A stretch of DNA of 32,465 nt from Defluviitaleaceae bacterium (GTDB lineage: Bacteria > Bacillota_I > Bacilli_A > MOL361 > Turicibacteraceae), in NCBI GenBank assembly GCA_009778135.1, contig WRKJ01000085.1:1-32465 (forward strand). The letters are read 5' to 3'. A model generated the notes under the pieces. That model ran no database searches. It had not been told where the DNA came from and saw only the letters and a list, made by a program, of their open reading frames with translations. Shown piece after piece: positions 11,220-32,465 of this stretch. Position 1 is the first letter of the stretch; each line of letters opens with the position of its first letter. The position numbers and the translations under genes are program-made.

Positions 11220-11306
11220 ACGACCATTTGATGAAGTGAATGTTTGATTGTGAATAAGTAACGCATAGGTTCGTGTGACAAGCCTATGCGTTTATGGTCG
11301 TCGTTT
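11220..11306 (+). terminator. Nested hairpin terminator after permease copy 2
   Basis: An outer stem, acgaccat (11220-11227) with atggtcgt (11294-11301), encloses an inner stem, acgcatagg (11261-11269) with cctatgcgt (11283-11291). A short T-run follows at 11303-11306. It separates the permease gene from the peptide transporter operon. I see no clear promoter for the operon between here and 11341. Confidence 0.55.
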
Positions 11307-11355
11307 TCTCAAAGCGGTCGAAGTGAAAAATAATGAGACTCAAGGAGGAAAAGTA

Positions 11356-12180
11356 ATGTCCACATTAAAAAAGCGCTTGAAAAATTTACAAATTGTGATG
11401 GGTGGTAGCATTGTGTTTGTGCTGGTGATCATGGCGATTTTTGCGCCACTTGTTGCCCCACTGGACCCGCTTGCGATTGATGTCCCCGGTCGGCTTAGCC
11501 CGCCTTCAGCGTATCATTGGTTAGGGACGGATGCACTCGGTCGAGATGTGTTCTCAAGGCTTATTTTTGGTACACGGATCAGTTTAATGATTGGTGTACT
11601 TGCTTCTTTTTTTGGGGCTGTTGTTGGGGTGACGATTGGGATCATTTCAGGTTACTATGGCAAATGGGTAGATGCCGTTGTCATGCGCTTTTGTGATATT
11701 TTACTTGCATTTCCAGGTATTTTATTGGCTTTAGGTATTATTACGATTCTCGGAGCAGGCACGTTTAATACGATTATTGCTGTTTCTATTTTCGCCGTGC
11801 CGATTTTTGCTCGTATTGCACGTGGTCAAGCGATGCAGGTAAAAAAAGCAGAATACATTGATGCGATTAAAACAGTGGGTGCCAGTGACTTACGGATTTT
11901 AACACGTCACATCTTGCCGAATATTCTTTCGCCGATTACCGTTCAAATGACGCTTTATGTGGCAAGTGCCATTGTAACAGCAGCAAGTTTATCTTTCTTA
12001 GGACTTGGTACGCAACAGCCTACACCTGAGTGGGGGACCATGCTGGCAGATGGACGTGAATTTTTGCTGCAAGCGCCGCATCTTGTTTTGTATCCAGGAC
12101 TGTCTATTTTAATCACTGTGCTTGGGATTAATTTACTTGGTGATGGACTCAGAGATGCACTTAGGCCAAGAGGGAGGTAA
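11356..12180 (+). CDS. dppC: Peptide ABC transporter permease, DppC/OppC type
   Basis: 274-residue inner-membrane permease of a peptide or nickel importer. It begins with the OppC_N helix and motif APLVAPLDP, continues with HWLGTDALGRDVFSRLIFGTR, which is diagnostic of the DppC/OppC/GsiD branch, and has the EAA loop EYIDAIKTVGASDLRILTRHILPN that docks onto the ATPases. The start at 11356 is set by AAGGAGG 7 nt upstream; the open frame continues 5' into the terminator hairpin but has no SD there. It is the first gene of a five-gene operon C-B-D-F-A. Putting the C permease before B and the binding protein last is a less common order. Confidence 0.93.
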   Translation: MSTLKKRLKNLQIVMGGSIVFVLVIMAIFAPLVAPLDPLAIDVPGRLSPPSAYHWLGTDALGRDVFSRLIFGTRISLMIGVLASFFGAVVGVTIGIISGYYGKWVDAVVMRFCDILLAFPGILLALGIITILGAGTFNTIIAVSIFAVPIFARIARGQAMQVKKAEYIDAIKTVGASDLRILTRHILPNILSPITVQMTLYVASAIVTAASLSFLGLGTQQPTPEWGTMLADGREFLLQAPHLVLYPGLSILITVLGINLLGDGLRDALRPRGR

Positions 12181-12185
12181 ATGAT

Positions 12186-13115
12186 ATGCTTTACTTTTTT
12201 ATCAAACGTTTGTTGCAAATGATTCCTGTTGCCATTGGTGTTACCATCGCTGTTTTCTTAATCTTGCACCTTATCCCAGGTGATCCTGCGAGGATCATGG
12301 CAGGAGAAGCAGCCAATCCAGAGCAACTGGAACAAATGCGAATTAATTTAGGACTTCATTTGCCACTTCATGAGCAATTTTTGAACTATTTTGGCAATTT
12401 GCTTCAAGGTGATATGGGCACTTCGATTCGCACAGGTCGACCTGTCGTCCTTGAAATTTTTGAAAATCGATTTTTGATTACTTTACAGCTGGCGATTGCA
12501 GGTACATCACTCTCTATTTTATTGGGACTGATTGTGGGCATTCTTTCTGCAGCAACAAAAACGCGATATAGCTTTGTGGAAAAGCTATTGATGCTTGTTT
12601 CTTTAGTCGGTTTAAGCATGCCGAATTTTTGGCTCGGTATTTTACTGATTCAACTTTTTAGTGTCAGACTGGACTGGCTGCCGATTATTGGTTGGGGCAC
12701 ATGGCAACAGATGATCATGCCCATGCTGACCCTTGGCGTTACAGGGATGGCTGCTATTGCGCGTATGACTTCTAATTCACTTACAGAAGTGCTGGCACAA
12801 GACTACATCCGTACTGCTTATGCCAAAGGTGTCAAAAGCAGTGTGATCATCTTTAGACACGCCCTTAAAAATGGTCTTATCCCAGTGGTGACGATTGTTG
12901 GCTTGCAATTTGGCAGCTTGCTTGGGGGTGCAATTATTACAGAAAGTATCTTTGCGATTAATGGTCTTGGTAGGCTTGTTGTCGATGCGATTCGGGCGCA
13001 AGATTTTCCACTTTTACAAGGTGCAGTGCTTGTTTATGCACTGGTCTTTGTCGTGGTGAATTTCTTGGTGGATATCTCCTATCGACTCATCAATAAACGC
13101 ATGGAGTTAAATTAG
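12186..13115 (+). CDS. dppB: Peptide ABC transporter permease, DppB/OppB type
   Basis: 309-residue permease that pairs with DppC to form the membrane channel. It opens with FIKRLLQMIPVAIGVTIAVFLILHLIPGDP, the N-terminal signature of DppB/OppB proteins, and carries the EAA loop DYIRTAYAKGVKSSVIIFRHALKN and the C-terminal ESIFAINGLGRLVVDAI motif. It starts 5 nt after dppC, and its SD AGGGAGGT lies inside the dppC stop region, so the two are tightly coupled. Confidence 0.94.
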   Translation: MLYFFIKRLLQMIPVAIGVTIAVFLILHLIPGDPARIMAGEAANPEQLEQMRINLGLHLPLHEQFLNYFGNLLQGDMGTSIRTGRPVVLEIFENRFLITLQLAIAGTSLSILLGLIVGILSAATKTRYSFVEKLLMLVSLVGLSMPNFWLGILLIQLFSVRLDWLPIIGWGTWQQMIMPMLTLGVTGMAAIARMTSNSLTEVLAQDYIRTAYAKGVKSSVIIFRHALKNGLIPVVTIVGLQFGSLLGGAIITESIFAINGLGRLVVDAIRAQDFPLLQGAVLVYALVFVVVNFLVDISYRLINKRMELN

Positions 13116-13125
13116 GAGGTATGAG

Positions 13126-14136
13126 ATGATGACACAACCATTATTACAAGTCAGTGATCTAAAAACGTCCTTTTTTAGTGATCGTGGCGAAGTTAAAGCA
13201 GTTAATGGTATTAGCTTTTCATTAGAAGCGGGGCGCACCATTGGCATTGTTGGCGAGTCGGGTTCTGGCAAAAGTATTACGAGCTTGTCTATTATGCAAC
13301 TTTTACATGGCACATCAGGTCAAATCATGAGTGGCGAAATTTTATTCAAAGGTCGTGACTTGCTCAAGCTTAAAGAATCTGAGATGCGCAAAATCCGTGG
13401 TAATGAAATTTCCATGATTTTCCAAGAACCGATGACCAGTTTAAACCCAACGATGAAAATTGGTGAGCAAATTGCTGAAGCGATCCGTATTCATCAACAA
13501 GCGTCGCGTAAGATGGCTTGGGATAAAGCGGTCGACATGCTTGACAAAGTCGGTATCCCTTCACCTAAAAAACGTGCGAGTCAGTTTCCTTTTGAGCTTT
13601 CAGGCGGCATGCGACAACGCGTCATGATTGCCATGGCACTCGCTTCTAACCCTGAACTGTTAATTGCAGATGAACCAACAACGGCACTTGATGTAACCAT
13701 TCAAGCACAAATTTTAAAACTTATTAAAGCTTTGCAAAGTGAAACGCAAACAGCGATGATCATGATCACCCACGATTTAGGGGTCATTGCTGAAACATGT
13801 GATGACGTTGCCGTGATGTATTGTGGTAAAATCGTTGAGTACACCGATGTCGTTACATTGTTTAAAAATCCGCTTCATCCGTATACAAAAGGTTTGCTTG
13901 CTTCATTACCGACGCATGATGTGAAAAAAGAGAAGCTTGAAATCATCGAAGGACATGTCCCAAGTCCTTACGAATTGCCATCAGGCTGTGCTTTTGCGCC
14001 GAGATGTCCTTATGTGACCGATGCATGCGCTAAAGAAATGCCACCACTGATTGAGGGAAGCGTGAGATGCATTCATGCCCAAGCGATTGCACAAGGACTT
14101 CACCGAAAAACGATGCAAGCGAAAGGAGGTGCATGA
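13126..14136 (+). CDS. dppD: Peptide ABC transporter ATPase, DppD/OppD type
   Basis: 336-residue cytosolic ATPase. It contains Walker [10 protein letters not shown]-loop [10 protein letters not shown], signature [15 protein letters not shown], Walker [14 protein letters not shown] and H-loop MITHDLG. The oligopeptide-transporter C-terminal extension has the Cys-rich [13 protein letters not shown] segment, which in this family binds an Fe-S cluster or shapes the C terminus. The LSGGMRQR signature marks the D subunit. SD AGGAGGT lies 5 nt before ATG 13126; ATG 13129 is an alternative start. It forms the ATPase heterodimer with the next gene. Confidence 0.94.
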
Positions 14137-14140
14137 GGTC

Positions 14141-15118
14141 ATGAGTGAACCTTTATTAGAAGTGCGAAATTTAAAAAAATATTTTCCTGTCAAAACAGGA
14201 TTTGCTAAAACAACGCAAGTAAAAGCAGTCGATGACGTGAGTTTTACAGTCAATGCTGGTGAAACGGTAAGCATCGTTGGCGAATCGGGTTGTGGTAAGT
14301 CAACAACAGGGCGTGCGATCATGCAACTTGACAAACCGACAGCGGGTCAAATCATTTTTAATGGTGTTGATTTGATGACGCTTTCTAAATCTGATTTGAG
14401 AAAAACACGTGGTGACATTCAAATGATTTTTCAAGATCCGTTTGCATCACTTAATCCAAGACAAACTGTTTATCACATGTTAAACGAAGTGATGGCTGTT
14501 CAAGGCATTGGTAAAAATGGTCAGCGTCGCGAGAAGATTAAAGAACTGTTAGCAACTGTCGGCTTGCTAGAACATCAAATTGACTTGTTGCCACATCAAT
14601 TTTCAGGCGGGCAACGTCAACGGATTGGCATTGCTCGTGCGCTTGCTGCTAACCCGAAACTGATTGTCTGTGACGAAGCTGTTTCTGCCCTTGATGTGAG
14701 TATTCAGGCGCAAGTGCTTAATTTGCTCAAAGATTTGCAAAAAGAGCTCAACTTGACCTATTTATTTATTTCTCATGATCTCGGTGTTGTCCGGCATATA
14801 TCAGATAAAATCATCGTCATGTATCTCGGTAAAGTCATGGAAATTTCTGAAAGTGAAGCACTGTTTAATCGCCCACGTCACCCCTACACAAAAGCTTTGC
14901 TTTCTGCGATTCCAACCATTGATTTTGACAACCCGAAAGAAAAGCTCATCTTGCAAGGCGATGTGCCAACCCCTTTAGACCCACCGACGGGCTGTCCTTT
15001 TCATACCCGTTGTCCTTTTGCGATTGAAGCGTGCAAGCAAACTGTTCCGGCAGTAGAACCTCAAAAAGATGACCCGACCCATGGCGTAGCTTGCATTCGG
15101 ACAGAAGAAATTGCCTAG
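14141..15118 (+). CDS. dppF: Peptide ABC transporter ATPase, DppF/OppF type
   Basis: 325-residue ATPase partner of DppD. It contains Walker [20 protein letters not shown], signature [15 protein letters not shown], Walker [16 protein letters not shown]-loop SHDLGVV and the C-terminal [15 protein letters not shown] Cys motif. DEAVSALDV and SGGQRQR mark the F subunit. The start at 14141 is chosen because AAGGAGGT lies 10 nt upstream. It begins 4 nt after the dppD stop; the open frame extends upstream inside dppD but without an SD. Confidence 0.94.
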
Positions 15119-15147
15119 TTTGATACGGATTTTCAATCCGTGTCAAA
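15119..15147 (+). other. 13-bp hairpin directly after dppF
   Basis: tttgatacggatt (15119-15131) pairs with aatccgtgtcaaa (15135-15147) with one G-U and a 3-nt loop, starting one base after the dppF stop. There is no U-tail, so it is more likely an RNA 3'-end protector or processing barrier than a full terminator. Confidence 0.6.
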
Positions 15148-15168
15148 CGACAGTTGCTTGGCGTTTTT

Positions 15169-15219
15169 GAAACAGATGGTGAGGCGCTTAACACAGTTGA
15201 GCATCTCACCATCTGTTTC
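15169..15219 (+). other. 15-bp perfect hairpin between dppF and the binding protein gene
   Basis: gaaacagatggtgag (15169-15183) pairs perfectly with ctcaccatctgtttc (15205-15219). An inner stem, gctta/tgagc, extends it. No T-run follows. With the preceding hairpin it probably sets differential mRNA levels between the permease/ATPase genes and the binding protein, which such systems need in excess. No convincing promoter is visible between 15220 and 15310. Confidence 0.6.
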
Positions 15220-15325
15220 ATAAGTGTTTTGCATTTGTTAGGTGTCACGACCGTCTTTTGATTGCGGGCGTTAACGCGTGGGAAATAAAAAGGCAGATGA
15301 AAAAAATTGAAGGAGGAGAAATCCT

Positions 15326-16924
15326 ATGAAAAAAAGAAGTATGTGGCTAGCTTTGCTAGCAGTTGCATTTTTGCTGTTTTTGACAGCATGTGGTACCGAT
15401 GAGGATGGATCGAGTCTTGGAGAAGTCGTTGATCCGACCGAAGCGGATAACGGTGATGAGGTGTCACCTGCTATGACTGGCGGCGAAATCGTCTATGTGG
15501 TCGCATCTGATGTTGTCACCTTAGATCCGATTCGTTCAAATGATTCAGCTTCAACAGATGCACAGTCACAAATGCTTGACGGTTTAACACGTTTTGATCC
15601 TGTCACTGCAGAGTTATTACCACGCTTGGCAACAAGTTTTGAACAAATCGAACCAACCGTTTGGGAATTTTCTTTACGTCAAGGGATTTATTTCACAGAT
15701 GGTGCTTACTTTGATGCCGATGTTGTGGCACTCAATTTAAACCGACTTTTAGATCCAGAGGAAGCATCACCTGCGTTGTTTATTGTTGAAATGATCACTG
15801 AAGTTGAAGTGGTTGACACTTATACGGTACATATCCACACAGAATTTCCATTTGCACCACTTCCTGGTCATTTAGCGCATCGAAGTGGCTTCATGGTGAG
15901 TCCCAATGCGATTGCTGCAACTGAAGTCGGTGAAGATGTTGAACCTGTTGGTACAGGACCATTCATTCTTTCTGACCGTGAATATGGGAATTTCCTTTTA
16001 ATGGAACGAAATGATGCTTATTGGGGAAGTCAATTGGCAATTCCTGATTATGTTCGCTTTATTGTCGTACCAGAACCAGCGACACGCTTTGCCATGGTGC
16101 AAACAGGTGAAGCCCACTATTTAGTCGGTCAACCCACTGATTTTGCGGTTGCTTCCGATATTGATAGCATTGATGTTGATTTACTTCAAACGACGACACT
16201 TGATTATATCGGTTTTAATACGGCTGAAGGGCCACTTGCGAATGTCCTCGTTCGTCAAGCAATTACGCATGCGATTGATCGAAATGCCATCGTTGAAGGA
16301 TTAGCTGAAGGCGTTGGTTTAGTCGCAACAGGACCACTTGCACCACTTGTGGACATGTCACCCACTGTTGAAGGGTTAGACTTTGATTTAGAGTTGGCAC
16401 GTGCGTTACTTGAAGAATCTGGTTATACAGACATTGAACTGAATTTTTGGTACAATGAAGGGAATAACTTCCGTGGACTTGTAGGTGTGTTTGTGCAAGC
16501 ATCTTTAGCTGAAATTGGGATTACCGTTAATGTTGCTTCTTTAGAATGGGGTGCTTATCTTGAAGCAACTGCAGCGGGTGAGCATGACATGTTTATGTTA
16601 GGTTGGGTGACGACAACAGGAGATCCCGACTACGGATTATTCCCCATTTTACATAGCGATCAAGTCGGTGATCCAGGGAACCGTTTCTTCTTTGAAAATG
16701 ACGAAGTCGATGCGCTGCTAGCGCGTGGTCGTCAATCATCAGACAGAGCATACCGCATGGCTGTTTATCAAGAAGTTGCGGAATTGCTTGTTTATGAAGC
16801 GCCGATGGTACCATTACGTTTCCAACAAGCTGTTTTGCTTTCAAACGGTGTTGATGGTATTTTAACAGACTTCGCTAATACGCCATTCTTCTACCGTGCA
16901 ACGTTACGACCTACAGTCGATTAA
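15326..16924 (+). CDS. dppA: Peptide-binding lipoprotein, family 5 solute-binding protein
   Basis: 532-residue extracellular lipoprotein. The signal peptide ends in the lipobox LTAC with the lipidated Cys at residue 22. An acidic linker rich in Asp and Glu (23-50) is followed by the SBP_bac_5 fold: VVTLDPIRSNDSAS, DGLTRFDPVTAELLPRLATSFE, WEFSLRQGIYFTDGAYFDADVV, GTGPFIL and MLGWVTTTGDPDYGLFPIL. It delivers di- or oligopeptides, or another ligand of this large family, to DppBC. GAAGGAGG lies upstream of the ATG. The ligand cannot be read from the sequence. Confidence 0.92.
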   Translation: MKKRSMWLALLAVAFLLFLTACGTDEDGSSLGEVVDPTEADNGDEVSPAMTGGEIVYVVASDVVTLDPIRSNDSASTDAQSQMLDGLTRFDPVTAELLPRLATSFEQIEPTVWEFSLRQGIYFTDGAYFDADVVALNLNRLLDPEEASPALFIVEMITEVEVVDTYTVHIHTEFPFAPLPGHLAHRSGFMVSPNAIAATEVGEDVEPVGTGPFILSDREYGNFLLMERNDAYWGSQLAIPDYVRFIVVPEPATRFAMVQTGEAHYLVGQPTDFAVASDIDSIDVDLLQTTTLDYIGFNTAEGPLANVLVRQAITHAIDRNAIVEGLAEGVGLVATGPLAPLVDMSPTVEGLDFDLELARALLEESGYTDIELNFWYNEGNNFRGLVGVFVQASLAEIGITVNVASLEWGAYLEATAAGEHDMFMLGWVTTTGDPDYGLFPILHSDQVGDPGNRFFFENDEVDALLARGRQSSDRAYRMAVYQEVAELLVYEAPMVPLRFQQAVLLSNGVDGILTDFANTPFFYRATLRPTVD

Positions 16925-26955: not shown

Positions 26956-27127
26956 CATGAAAAAAATCTAAAATAGCTTCGTTAAACCATTAATGCGAAT
27001 ATCGGTCGATTTGGTCGATTGAGCGGGTGATCGTTGCATTTATTGCCTTTAAAAGGGGAATATATACTAATTTTCAGCGTTTTCATGACAAAATGAATTG
27101 ACAAGTTCGATGAAGTATGCTTATAAT
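26956..27127 (+). promoter_or_regulatory. Upstream region and promoter of the dockerin protease
   Basis: TTGACA (27098-27103), 18 bp, then extended -10 TGCTTATAAT (TATAAT 27122-27127). Upstream, ggtcgatt is repeated at 27004-27011 and 27013-27020 (9-bp period). No gene was found from 26956 to 27097. Confidence 0.7.
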
Positions 27128-27362: not shown

Positions 27363-30300
27363 ATGATAATCAAAAGATTAAGCACAAGAAATTGTTCCAA
27401 AAACAACTTTAAAACGGATAAAAGAACTTCTCCTTTTGGGGGACGTCCTTTTTCTCTCTTGTTAGCACTACTCATGATTGTGAGTCATCTGCCTTTGTCG
27501 CAAGCCTTTGCGGCTCAAGATGGGATGCAGGCACCTGTGTCATTGGATGGCGCAGCGGATGTCCTTTACGCTGACAGTGATGGTGAGCTAACCGAACTTC
27601 AAGAATTGGCACTTTATGAAATTGGACGTGAACGTCTTAATCGTGGACTGATTGGCTTTGAAGATGCGTATGCGTTATCAGACGATGATGATCTAGTCAG
27701 TGTTATTGTCATGTTTGAACATAGTCCATCTGAAGTACAAGTATTAGTAGCTGAACGAGAAGGCGTTCAACTCTCTCGAGCAGCAGCTGAGGAAATCGTT
27801 GAAGATGACCATGCGTTGTTTAGACAAGAGTTGAGTACGTTATTTGAGTCACAACAAGCGCAAACTTATACCATTGAATGGGAGTATCGGGTGGCGCTAA
27901 ATGGTGTGAGTCTCACATTACCTGCTCATTTGGTAAGTGCGTTAGCCGATTTTGAAAGTGTTCGAGCGATTTATCCCAATGCGATGATGTCTCATGGTCC
28001 AGTAGAGGTTGAGTCGTTAGAATCAGTACTGAGAAACCCGCAAGGCATGGCACCAGGTCGACGTACCATGAGGGCAGATGACATGCATGCATTGGGGTAC
28101 CGTGGTGCAGGCGTCGTCATTGCGGTGTTAGATACAGGGATTGATTACGATCACCCTGCATTTGAAGGTGCATTTTTAACGTTTGAAGAAATGCGTGAAC
28201 GTAACCCGGCTTTAACAGAGGAAGAAACCATTAATGGCTATTTCTTTGGTCGAAACTTCATTAATGATGTCGCACTTTTTCCAACGATGGCAAATCCACA
28301 AGATGCACCGGCTGCCAATGATCCGATGGAAACAACCTATGAATTTTGGCGTGGAACTGGATTGCCTCGATTTTCTAACCCACTTACTGGAGAAGGCCAA
28401 TTTTTCACGGCACATGGGACCCATGTAGCAGGTACAATTGCCGGTCGAGATACGGGTGCTGATGTGGCTATTTTAGGGGTGGCACCAGAAGCGACACTCA
28501 TTGCTTATCGGGTATTAGGACCGCGTGGGTCAGGGCCGATTGCAGGGATTGTCGCAGCCATTGAACAAGCGGTTCATGATCGTGTGGATATTGTGAACAT
28601 GTCATTGGGTGGTGCCAATAACACGCCAGCTGGTTGGGCACCAACAACAGCAGTTAATCATGTCAAACTGACGAATCCTGATATTTCATTTGTCATTTCA
28701 GCTGGGAATTCTGGTTCTAACTTTCATACCGTAGGTTCTCCTGGAACAGCCAGTACAGCCATTACCGTTTCCAACATTGTGGAAGGTGGCTATACAGGTG
28801 TGATGATGGATCATGAAGGAGAAGCGTATGCGATTAACTTCGGTTCAACACCTGCGAGTTTATGGGTTTATGATCCTGCTCTAGGTAAAATCATTAACAC
28901 ATGGGAAGGTTTGGAACATGAAGATGGCGTTTATCGTCTCTTTGCGTTGCCGAGAACCGATGAGACCAATCAAGCACCTGGACCCGTACCTGGCGTTGGT
29001 GTACAAGCTGATTTTGATGCATTAGTGGCTAAGTACGGTATTGATGCGTTGCAAGGTGCATTTGTGTTAATCAGACGTGGACACACATTTGTAGATGTGG
29101 CAGCAACAGCCTATGAATTAGGCTTAGGTGGTGTCATCGTTATTAATAACACCGATGCAAATGATGTTGCAGGGATTCCAACATTGCCACTGCCTTATGT
29201 GTTTGTGGCACTTGATCGTGGGATTGTGTTGTATGAACAGATGCAAGGCGCTATTGCAGCAGATGAACCATCAGCCATCTCATTTTCATCACTGTTGATG
29301 TCTTCTTTTAGATTAAGCCCGACATCATCTCGTGGTCCAATTGCACAGAGTTATGAAATTAAACCGGATATCGGTGCCAATGGAACCAGTGTCTTTTCAG
29401 CTGTTCCTGCTTGGTGGGTAGGTGCAGGAGGTGGTTCAGACTATCGCATCGCATATGCCAATATGTCTGGAACATCTATGTCTGCGCCTCATGTGGCAGG
29501 TGCTGTTGCTTTAATGATTGAATACAGTCGCGAACATACCGGAGAAGCTTGGGAAAATGAGGTGTTAAAAACCCGTATCATGAACACGGCCATTCCATTT
29601 GAAAGCGGCTTATACAGTGTGTTTGATAAAGGGATTGGTTATATAGATGTTTATGCAGCAACTCATGCACAAACCGTGGTGTTTGTTGAATATGACCGAG
29701 TGGCAACGGCAGCTGGTGTTCCTTTTGCTTCACAAAATTTTCAAACGATGCGAACAGGCTCTTTTAGTTTTGGTGGCGCTAATGCACACAATGGTCTAGA
29801 TAGAACGTTGACAGGAAGCATTGTCAATCAAGGAACACAAGCGCAAACCTATGTGATTACCTATGCGTTTATCCAAGGTGGTAGAAATATTCAAGATCCA
29901 GCACAAGCAACCCTTAGCTTTAGTGAAACCACCCTCACAGCGCCAGCCGGTGATACTGTTTATTTTGAAGCGAATTTCCGAATTGAACCAAGATCCACAG
30001 CTGGTTTTTATGAAGGGATTGTGACAGTTGCAACAGCAGATGGCGAGATCATTGCCAGATTACCTTTTGGTGCTGTTTTGAGCACACCACTCTTACAAGA
30101 TGTTTATTTGTATCGCCCAGTTATTTCCACATCAGCGTATCGACAAAACCCTGCCAGTAGTCAATTAGGGATTTTCTACACACCCAATCATGGATTTGGT
30201 GTCAATACCTTTGTTGTTAGAGATGTCGAAGGTCTTGATGAAAGCAATTGGTTCTTTGACGAATTTGAAGCGGCATTTATTGGTGGAAGGACAATGCTAG

Positions 30301-31505
30301 GAGGCGGCCTAGGTTTAGGACAACCGCATCGTGGACTTGCCTTTGATCAGAGTTTTCAAGGGGTAACCCTCGAAGAAGAAGGTGATTATTTCTTAGTACT
30401 AGAAGTTTTCAGACAAACAACAGCAGCAGGTGGTTGGGTGCTCGAAAAAGACATTTTATTGCCTTTCTCAGTTGATAATACACCACCAGTCTTAACCCTT
30501 GATCAACTAGAAGATTCATCGACTTTATCGGTCATAAATCCTGAAAGTGGGATTGCGATTAGCGGAAATGTCCACGATACTTGGTTAGAGGCTGCAGCCG
30601 AAAGAGGATTGACGTTTGACATTTGGCGAGCAGGTGCGCCTCATGGTCCAATGGCAAATCAAGGATTGAATGGCTTGTGGATGCAAGTTGAAGATGAAAA
30701 CCCTGTTCGAGTGTCATTAGATCACAATGGGAACTTTGATATCCAATTGGAAACTGATGCAGCACTGCCACTTGATGTGACGTTCTTTGCCATCGATAAC
30801 TATACCATTATTCCAAGAGTTGATGCCATGCTTGGAACAACAAATCAAGGAAGTGTTTTGGGCTGGTTGGCAGATGACGACTTCTTGCTACCAACTAGAA
30901 TGGTAAATGCGGATCTAGGCTTAAATGCTTACTTACGTATCGGTCGTTTATTTAATTTTACCGGTGCAGTGTTGAGTGAAAATGTGTGGACGGGATCAAA
31001 TATGATTGAAAAGACAGTAACGCTTGTTGAACAGCGTGTGCCAGTGACCCTCGAAACACCGATTAGTCTTTCAATAACAGATGACGTTTTAACTTGGGAT
31101 TCAGTGGCAAATGCAAGTGCGTATCGGATTTATATCAATGGCATTTCAGAAACTGACGTTTTAGAAGCTTACGTTGACTTAACAACATTAACCATCCCGT
31201 ATGGAACGCATACAGTTGCTGTTCGAGCCATTGGTGATGGTGAATACCTTCTTGACTCAGCATTAAGTGAAGCCATCGAATTTACCGTGTATCGCATCAT
31301 CTGGGGAGATGTCAATGGAGACGGTGTCGTTAACCTGAATGACCTTGTCTTACTCAATCGTTACCTTGCAAATCATGATTTGAGTGGCATTACCTTTTAT
31401 AGACACCTAGCCGATGTGTACCACGATGGTGTGATTAATGCGGATGATCGTACTTTACTTCAACGTTACCTCGCAGGACATCATGTCGTGCTAGGTCCTC
31501 AATAG
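27363..31505 (+). CDS. Secreted subtilisin-family (S8) protease with C-terminal dockerin
   Basis: 1380-residue precursor. Signal peptide at about 30-51 (LLLALLMIV, cleavage near AFAA); I9-type propeptide at about 112-206; peptidase S8 domain with catalytic Asp257 (VLDTGID), His351 (AHGTHVAG), oxyanion Asn449 (SAGNSG) and Ser705 (SGTSMSAPH). A PA domain is inserted at about 546-636, as in lactocepin/C5a-peptidase enzymes. A long beta-sandwich region follows (about 790-1230), then an FN3-like module (about 1231-1311). The type-I-like dockerin at about 1314-1378 has two Ca-binding repeats, GDVNGDGVVNLND and ADVYHDGVINADD. ATG 27363 follows AAGGAG. No LPXTG or S-layer motif is visible, so attachment to a cohesin scaffold, probably the next gene's product, is the likely way it is held at the cell surface. 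Confidence 0.92.
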   Translation: MIIKRLSTRNCSKNNFKTDKRTSPFGGRPFSLLLALLMIVSHLPLSQAFAAQDGMQAPVSLDGAADVLYADSDGELTELQELALYEIGRERLNRGLIGFEDAYALSDDDDLVSVIVMFEHSPSEVQVLVAEREGVQLSRAAAEEIVEDDHALFRQELSTLFESQQAQTYTIEWEYRVALNGVSLTLPAHLVSALADFESVRAIYPNAMMSHGPVEVESLESVLRNPQGMAPGRRTMRADDMHALGYRGAGVVIAVLDTGIDYDHPAFEGAFLTFEEMRERNPALTEEETINGYFFGRNFINDVALFPTMANPQDAPAANDPMETTYEFWRGTGLPRFSNPLTGEGQFFTAHGTHVAGTIAGRDTGADVAILGVAPEATLIAYRVLGPRGSGPIAGIVAAIEQAVHDRVDIVNMSLGGANNTPAGWAPTTAVNHVKLTNPDISFVISAGNSGSNFHTVGSPGTASTAITVSNIVEGGYTGVMMDHEGEAYAINFGSTPASLWVYDPALGKIINTWEGLEHEDGVYRLFALPRTDETNQAPGPVPGVGVQADFDALVAKYGIDALQGAFVLIRRGHTFVDVAATAYELGLGGVIVINNTDANDVAGIPTLPLPYVFVALDRGIVLYEQMQGAIAADEPSAISFSSLLMSSFRLSPTSSRGPIAQSYEIKPDIGANGTSVFSAVPAWWVGAGGGSDYRIAYANMSGTSMSAPHVAGAVALMIEYSREHTGEAWENEVLKTRIMNTAIPFESGLYSVFDKGIGYIDVYAATHAQTVVFVEYDRVATAAGVPFASQNFQTMRTGSFSFGGANAHNGLDRTLTGSIVNQGTQAQTYVITYAFIQGGRNIQDPAQATLSFSETTLTAPAGDTVYFEANFRIEPRSTAGFYEGIVTVATADGEIIARLPFGAVLSTPLLQDVYLYRPVISTSAYRQNPASSQLGIFYTPNHGFGVNTFVVRDVEGLDESNWFFDEFEAAFIGGRTMLGGGLGLGQPHRGLAFDQSFQGVTLEEEGDYFLVLEVFRQTTAAGGWVLEKDILLPFSVDNTPPVLTLDQLEDSSTLSVINPESGIAISGNVHDTWLEAAAERGLTFDIWRAGAPHGPMANQGLNGLWMQVEDENPVRVSLDHNGNFDIQLETDAALPLDVTFFAIDNYTIIPRVDAMLGTTNQGSVLGWLADDDFLLPTRMVNADLGLNAYLRIGRLFNFTGAVLSENVWTGSNMIEKTVTLVEQRVPVTLETPISLSITDDVLTWDSVANASAYRIYINGISETDVLEAYVDLTTLTIPYGTHTVAVRAIGDGEYLLDSALSEAIEFTVYRIIWGDVNGDGVVNLNDLVLLNRYLANHDLSGITFYRHLADVYHDGVINADDRTLLQRYLAGHHVVLGPQ

Positions 31506-31529
31506 TTTGATCGTAGAATTGGAAAATAA

Positions 31530-31568
31530 CTAAAGCTGTAGTGGGTTGTTTGGCTACTACAGCTTTAG
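31530..31568 (+). other. 13-bp hairpin between protease and cohesin genes
   Basis: ctaaagctgtagt (31530-31542) pairs perfectly with actacagctttag (31556-31568) with a 13-nt loop, and A-rich sequence rather than a T-run follows. It is 24 bp after the protease stop and 5 nt before the SD of the next gene. It may be an RNA stabiliser or partial terminator within one operon. No separate promoter for the cohesin gene is visible. Confidence 0.6.
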
Positions 31569-31591
31569 AAATGAAGGAGAGGAAATAGCTG

Positions 31592-32465
31592 ATGCGTGTA
31601 AACAAGTTGAAAAATGGCTTAAAAGCTTTTTTGGCAATGGTATTTTTGGCAATGATACTCGTATTCACCAATGGGATACCTACGCTCGCTGTAAATGGGG
31701 AAACGATCATCATACCGATGGGTGAAGCGGAAACGCCCATTGTGATTTCAGGATCAGAAGAAACAGTGATGCAACATGCAGAAGGAGAAGACGCGTATGT
31801 AGATGTGGCATTGCGTGTAGACAGCTGGTCAGAAGCATACGATCTATTTGCTTTGCAATTTTGGGTGGTCTTTGATGCAGAAGAATTGACGCCTGTAGAG
31901 CTAACATCATCAGCGCTTTTGCCGATTGATGAGCTGCCAGAACTTTCAGACGAGATGTCATTTGTCTTTTTTGATCTAGAGATGTTTGGCGTCACTGATC
32001 CTGGAGAATTGGCAACGATTCGATTTAGAATCAATGATACGAGTGCCTCGGGAGAAATTCCAGTTACATTGATACCGGTTAGTGGACATGTTACCAGTTG
32101 GGACGCTGCTACTACTGAGCGACCTGTTGAAGTGGGAACACAAGGATTAATTACGATAGAGCCAGTAGAAGATGTGCCGATAGAAAGACCACCTGCAGAT
32201 GAGACACCCATTGTGATTTCAGGATCAGAAGAAACAGTGATGCAACATGCAGAGGGAGAAGATGCGTATGTAGATGTGGCATTGCGTGTAGACAGCTGGT
32301 CAGAAGCATACGATCTATTTGCTTTACAATTTTGGGTGGTTTTTGATGCAGAAGCGTTGACGCCTGTAGAGCTAACACCATCAGCGCTTTTGCCGCTTGA
32401 TGAGCTGCCAGAGCTTTCAGACGAGATGTCATTTGTCTTTTTTGATCTAGAGATGTTTGGCGCAA
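31592..32465 (+). CDS. Secreted scaffold-like protein with tandem cohesin-like domains (3' end outside window)
   Basis: Open frame from ATG 31592 (SD GAAGGAGAGG) to the window end, 291 residues seen. A signal peptide occupies about 1-33 (FLAMVFLAMILVF, cleavage near TLA). From residue 48 the protein is made of 157-residue units: one complete (about 48-204) and a second cut at 291. Each unit shows the cohesin pattern: an early strand YVDVALRVDSW, then LFALQFWVVFDAEELTPVEL, FVFFDLEMFG, GELATIRFRIND and a closing GLITIE strand, followed by a short acidic/Pro linker. Cohesins bind dockerins, and the gene just upstream encodes one. Attachment modules and the total number of repeats lie beyond the window. 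Confidence 0.75.
   Translation, partial: MRVNKLKNGLKAFLAMVFLAMILVFTNGIPTLAVNGETIIIPMGEAETPIVISGSEETVMQHAEGEDAYVDVALRVDSWSEAYDLFALQFWVVFDAEELTPVELTSSALLPIDELPELSDEMSFVFFDLEMFGVTDPGELATIRFRINDTSASGEIPVTLIPVSGHVTSWDAATTERPVEVGTQGLITIEPVEDVPIERPPADETPIVISGSEETVMQHAEGEDAYVDVALRVDSWSEAYDLFALQFWVVFDAEALTPVELTPSALLPLDELPELSDEMSFVFFDLEMFGA
31733..32465 (+). repeat. Near-identical 471-bp tandem repeat encoding cohesin-like units
   Basis: Unit 1 (31733-32203) and the start of unit 2 (32204-32465) are aligned without gaps at a period of 471 bp (157 codons). By eye they differ at only about a dozen positions over the overlapping ~260 bp, mostly synonymous. Such identity points to recent duplication or ongoing gene conversion. 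Confidence 0.85.

Follow-up and report, generated by a model that had tools for sequence, protein, structure and literature searches.

A dockerin-bearing subtilase beside a tandem-cohesin scaffold: a probable dedicated two-component protease complex in a Defluviitaleaceae bacterium

Does a dockerin-bearing protease that is encoded next to a protein of tandem cohesins belong to a cellulosome, or do the two proteins form a complex of their own? The question is raised by the distal end of the 32,465-nucleotide stretch analysed here (the window), which is contig WRKJ01000085.1 (C85) of a draft genome of 2.32 Mb in 109 contigs with an estimated completeness of 97%. The initial annotation of the window had offered two readings, a surface complex for degrading protein, linked to a peptide importer nearby, or a protease displayed by a private scaffold. 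We consider it likely that the locus encodes a dedicated two-component extracellular protease complex in which docking to a scaffold replaces the sortase anchor of the protease's relatives.

Protease, dockerin and scaffold

The features of the locus are compiled in Table 1. Translation of the protease is assigned, in line with the initial annotation, to an ATG with a good ribosome site (AGAAGGAG) and ends at a stop codon at 31503–31505; the frame itself opens earlier, at a GTG (27306), from which the triad residues are numbered. Pfam recognized the catalytic domain (Peptidase_S8, 1.5e-49), the prodomain (Inhibitor_I9, 1e-4) and, slightly under the cut-off of 23.9 bits, the PA insert (21.5 bits, 3e-4). 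Catalytic residues Asp276, His370 and Ser724 occupy alignment columns that are invariant in four relatives (five proteins). The nearest solved protease is the S8 peptidase 8jmw, and C5a peptidases in the PDB match residues 582–813, the latter half of the catalytic region. The protein thus resembles the lactocepin/C5a-type proteinases, as initially annotated, but lacks an LPXTG sorting signal and terminates in a dockerin. Fn3-like sequence, for which the structure model has no confidence, precedes this domain.

Table 1. Features of the protease–scaffold locus (positions in the window)
Feature	Position	Strand	Evidence or remark
Perfect sigma-70 consensus promoter-like site, TTGACA-18-TATAAT	27098..27127	+	12/12 matches; upstream of the gene pair
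Secreted S8 subtilase: I9 prodomain, PA insert, Fn3-like stretch, C-terminal dockerin	27363..31505	+	1380 aa counted from ATG
Type I dockerin, two Ca-loop repeats	31302..31475	+	Pfam 3.3e-11; PDB dockerins; model
Intergenic 15-bp hairpin without U tract	31530..31568	+	z -3.15; 0/200 shuffles fold as well
Scaffold gene, 5' part, from ATG	31592..32465	+	Rest on contig C94 (L006:84-490)
Cohesin unit 1, 157 aa	31739..32209	+	Pfam 4.8e-9; model and Foldseek
Cohesin unit 2, truncated at contig end	32210..32465	+	95% identity to unit 1; in-frame completion on C94

The two-repeat dockerin (residues 1334–1389) scored 43.7 bits with Dockerin_1 (PF00404; cut-off 22.9) and matched solved dockerins in the PDB down to 1.2e-11, the second and third best matches being a C. 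thermocellum serine protease (structure 8x39). Its structure was modelled with a pLDDT of about 90, and the Foldseek matches with E below 1 were dockerins. The two repeats are unlike each other, and calcium loop 2 has a tyrosine at position 3 (DVYHDG), where asparagine or aspartate is expected.

The product of the second gene begins with a signal peptide, which is followed by units repeating with a period of 471 nt and 95% identical across 269 nt; secretion and tandem architecture are therefore as initially described. Unit 1 scored 37 bits with the Pfam Cohesin profile (PF00963), above the cut-off of 24.1. An AlphaFold model based on a 59-sequence alignment is a nine-stranded sandwich (pLDDT 71), and all 50 PDB matches that Foldseek listed for it are cohesins, mostly of type I (best match 4ums, E 2.9e-8). 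The alignment profile alone also matched mainly cohesins in the PDB; a PDB search with the single unit sequence found nothing, the cohesin being remote. Because the alignment was chosen partly with the Pfam Cohesin profile, we take the Pfam score of the single sequence as the independent evidence. Structure prediction, which might have spoken against cohesins, thus agrees with this score.

The last base of the window is the end of the contig. The repeat DNA occurs at one other place in the genome, the first bases of contig C94, and the terminal 83 bases of C85 are exactly the initial 83 bases of C94. Reading through this overlap stays in frame and gives a protein of 426 aa before a stop, in which the signal peptide is followed by two complete cohesins and a helical, FIVAR-like C-terminus; we call the latter FIVAR-like only, as its score (27.7 bits) is slightly under the cut-off for FIVAR (PF07554; 29.2 bits). 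FIVAR modules are also found alongside cohesin/dockerin complexes of C. perfringens. Contig ends identical over 83 bp are what one more near-identical unit would give, so that two cohesins are a minimum, and further cohesins or other parts of the scaffold may sit in the assembly gap. Following the contig further, as had been advised, hence yielded a minimum cohesin count, whereas the anchors and additional dockerins sought at the same time did not turn up: neither an LPXTG motif nor SLH domains nor a membrane segment were found in the assembled scaffold parts, between which the gap remains, and no further dockerin in the genome at E<=10. A carbohydrate-binding module was likewise absent from the assembled scaffold parts in Pfam searches.

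Both genes lie on the same strand, 86 bp apart. The intergenic hairpin was rejected as an intrinsic terminator because it lacks a U tract, and no terminator-like site was found between the genes, which agrees with the single transcript originally proposed. In the cip-cel cellulosome operon of C. cellulolyticum, intergenic hairpins set subunit ratios via RNA processing (PMC4423207). By analogy, and purely as an idea, the hairpin might be a processing site that sets the amounts of protease and scaffold.

Beyond the scaffold gene, C94 contains five 62-bp tandem copies of an element (L006:582-885), each with the inverted repeat TCGTCTGT..ACAGACGA. The element is also present on six other contigs and represents an intergenic repeat family. 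The region farther downstream (L006:1003-6185), which may be a locus for matrix or surface proteins, encodes a small secreted protein that is TasA/CalY-like by eye and has no Pfam match; it also contains a DUF285 surface protein and a match, though weak, to S26 signal peptidases.

Partners in the genome and in the class

A genome-wide search for Dockerin_1 returned a single match, the S8 protease, even at E<=10, and the scaffold gene is the one true cohesin gene of the assembled genome. A second cohesin match, on C104, is a DUF11-like LPXTG repeat protein and was dismissed as a false positive, as was a DUF11-like repeat protein in G006, a genome from a different genus within the family. The assembled genome therefore offers protease and scaffold no candidate partners besides each other, and it encodes no cellulosome. 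Of the attributes of a cellulosome, a scaffoldin with several cohesins is present (at least two complete units). Several different dockerin enzymes are lacking, the only dockerin protein is a protease rather than an enzyme acting on plant polysaccharides, and the assembled scaffold parts carry the FIVAR-like domain in place of a CBM. The other seven genomes of the order contain neither a comparable pair nor a true cohesin.

The two readings of the initial annotation fared differently. Display of the protease by a private scaffold is well supported, both by the lone dockerin and the lone true cohesin gene in an assembly of 97% completeness and by the recurrence of S8-dockerin and cohesin genes as neighbours in other families. 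The importer, which is of the Opp/Dpp type (11275–16924), is connected with the pair by proximity only; it is located about 10 kb upstream with unrelated genes in between, so the link to protein feeding is weak. That the complex feeds on protein together with this importer is plausible, if weakly so.

The relatives of the protease differ from it at the C-terminus. A paralogue on C109 (62% identical) has no dockerin and ends in a proline-rich tail, a relative in a genome of the same genus (42%) is also dockerin-free, and the two relatives in G006 (54% and 44%) terminate in LPATG sorting signals, one of them with a FIVAR domain (9e-11) ahead of the signal. The dockerin is thus best viewed as a lineage-specific C-terminal replacement in this gene. 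The arm of FIVAR and anchor in the G006 relative has a partial counterpart on the separate scaffold. It is mainly the changed C-terminus and this FIVAR counterpart that lead us to take anchoring or assembly in trans as the role of the pair, and judging from these sequences docking appears to replace covalent anchoring by sortase. A single-protein search of genome contigs with the protease found no relative, and a profile of the relatives found only general subtilases (24–52% best-segment identity).

The class was surveyed in 395 genomes, with G006 left out as a false positive and the weak dockerin/cohesin signals of L117 and L163 (E about 1e-2 to 1e-4) left uncounted. Among the matches listed, 59 genomes have a cohesin, and at least 54 of these also have a dockerin. 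Where the two domains are on neighbouring separate genes, 36 pairs have the dockerin gene ahead of the cohesin gene and 1 has the reverse order, again among the matches listed; within the same limits, the dockerin-first order spans 32 genomes, usually with 105–154 bp between domain ends. Most dockerin-first pairs are from one family, however, and hence are not independent. In about 25 genomes of this family (L048, L049, L054, L055, L060, L063 and others), a dockerin gene is followed at about 105–154 bp by the gene of a cohesin protein with a membrane segment towards the C-terminal end. The cargo there combines a dockerin with cadherin-like domains (L049, L054) and in L054 resembles autolysins. 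Dockerins were also seen on an NPCBM/F5-8C protein (G332, G374) and on an Ig-like surface protein (G117). Fused forms were also seen: a cohesin joined to a phosphodiester glycosidase (NAGPA) domain (L081:4772-7960), and solute-binding proteins (SBP_bac_5, SBP_bac_8) that start with a cohesin followed by a dockerin (L077:4211-7474, L082:10815-14783).

Besides the protease studied here, at least seven S8-dockerin genes are among the matches listed, six of them near a gene with one to five cohesins. In G054 and G145 the S8-dockerin gene precedes a three-cohesin gene; in G073, G088 and G118 an S8-dockerin protein of 2400–2500 aa is encoded after a gene carrying three to five cohesins. G201 has an S8-dockerin gene and a one-cohesin gene with one ORF between them, which encodes a Rieske/VanA-type oxygenase (L085:3902-4948), and no cohesin was seen with the S8-LRR-dockerin protein of G254. 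Five of the seven proteases form one clade, whereas the protease of WRKJ01000085.1 falls among its relatives without a dockerin, and a tree constrained to place it in the five-member clade was rejected (AU p 2.2e-5). Subtilases would thus have captured a dockerin, with a cohesin gene nearby, at least twice, and the phylogeny points to a repeated origin of such neighbourhoods.

A model of the complex and its alternatives

The model that we infer extends to dockerin–cohesin binding, stoichiometry and the site of the complex. The S8 protease would be secreted and lose its prodomain, and its C-terminal dockerin would plug into the cohesins of the scaffold, the product of the second gene on the shared transcript. 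Two or more proteases would then sit next to one another on the scaffold, whose FIVAR-like C-terminus would tie the complex to a surface, either the bacterium's own wall or a protein substrate. The protease would in this way be displayed at the surface, with scaffold docking standing in for the sortase anchor that its relatives bear in the same chain.

Alternatively, the pair might be a corner or remnant of a conventional cellulosome, with the remaining enzymes absent from the draft assembly, whose 109 contigs split even the scaffold. Exactly one dockerin in a genome 97% complete, no true cohesin elsewhere in the order and no CBM found on the scaffold parts make this very improbable, and the single dockerin led us to reject cellulosome membership. 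Protease and scaffold might also not be partners, the dockerin serving another cohesin, for example that of a neighbour species, and the scaffold another ligand. Cohesin–dockerin specificity is not safely readable from sequence, and the repeats of this dockerin are asymmetric; nevertheless, the apparently common transcript, the lack of other partners in the genome and the strong one-way gene order across the class render such a mismatch unlikely.

Other alternatives accept the pairing and concern its location or purpose. The absence of an LPXTG motif, SLH domains and a membrane segment from the assembled scaffold, despite five sortases in the genome, would suit a soluble, released multi-protease particle, with the FIVAR-like domain targeting a substrate or host matrix, a role comparable to that of the CBM in a cellulosome. 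This is a tentative option that deserves consideration, but in the majority of comparable pairs the cohesin partner bears a membrane segment at its C-terminus, and two relatives of the protease are sortase-anchored. The scaffold could instead serve control, with the protease kept close to the cell to process surface proteins or turn them over, not for feeding. The same role has been proposed for the cellulosomal proteases of C. thermocellum (PMC12484212); for the present pair we regard it as somewhat unlikely. The dedicated scaffold-docked complex may in addition be one case of a wider pattern. Subtilases of the class would repeatedly have gained a dockerin and an adjacent cohesin gene, giving stand-alone, protease-only complexes ("proteolysomes") that replace sortase or membrane anchoring, and the same cassette would carry autolysin-like hydrolases and other cargo. 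We give this generalization an even chance of being correct.

Relation to known systems

Cohesin–dockerin pairs outside cellulosomes are known in archaea, too. Such non-cellulosomal modules were reportedly surveyed by Peer et al. in 2009. Cohesins and dockerins occur far outside cellulosomes, where their role is mostly unknown (PMC5244752), and dockerin proteases are known within cellulosomes and mucinolysomes (PMC12484212, PMC5301203, PMC12997984). A close parallel is Clo1313_0689 of C. thermocellum (PDB 8x39, 8x3a), an S8 protease docked through a C-terminal dockerin; unlike the protease described here, it comes from a cellulosome producer, has two dockerins and uses shared scaffoldins rather than a dedicated neighbour. 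Through its double dockerin, the C. thermocellum enzyme shows a preference for a scaffoldin bound to the cell (reviewed in PMC12484212). In Ruminococcus flavefaciens, a cysteine peptidase is attached to the cell by its dockerin via ScaE (PMC5301203), but this involves a different peptidase class, a shared anchoring scaffoldin and a full cellulosome.

Tandem-cohesin scaffoldins with dockerin peptidases among their cargo are found in the mucinolysome of Limousia, an animal-gut bacterium, which by contrast comprises many enzymes, mainly glycosidases, and several scaffoldins, one with a sortase motif (PMC12997984). The C. perfringens complexes with X82 cohesins exemplify pairing outside a cellulosome (Adams 2008, cited in PMC12997984); they differ in being pairwise, made of glycoside hydrolases with single cohesins, and devoid of a tandem-cohesin scaffold. 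Lactocepin PrtP and C5a peptidase share the S8 fold, the PA insert and a long C-terminal stalk with our protease but have an in-chain LPXTG anchor and no dockerin. In the open-access full texts that our search covered, we found no description of a stand-alone protease–scaffold pair or of the dockerin-then-cohesin gene order.

The locus represents a minimal, self-contained case with one enzyme, one scaffold and one apparent operon, and it comes with natural controls in the form of a paralogue without a dockerin in this genome and of relatives anchored by sortase. The purpose of docking without a cellulosome thereby becomes testable through two genes. Beyond this organism, the class-wide gene order predicts partner pairs, and compact pairs of this kind could be used for enzyme display.
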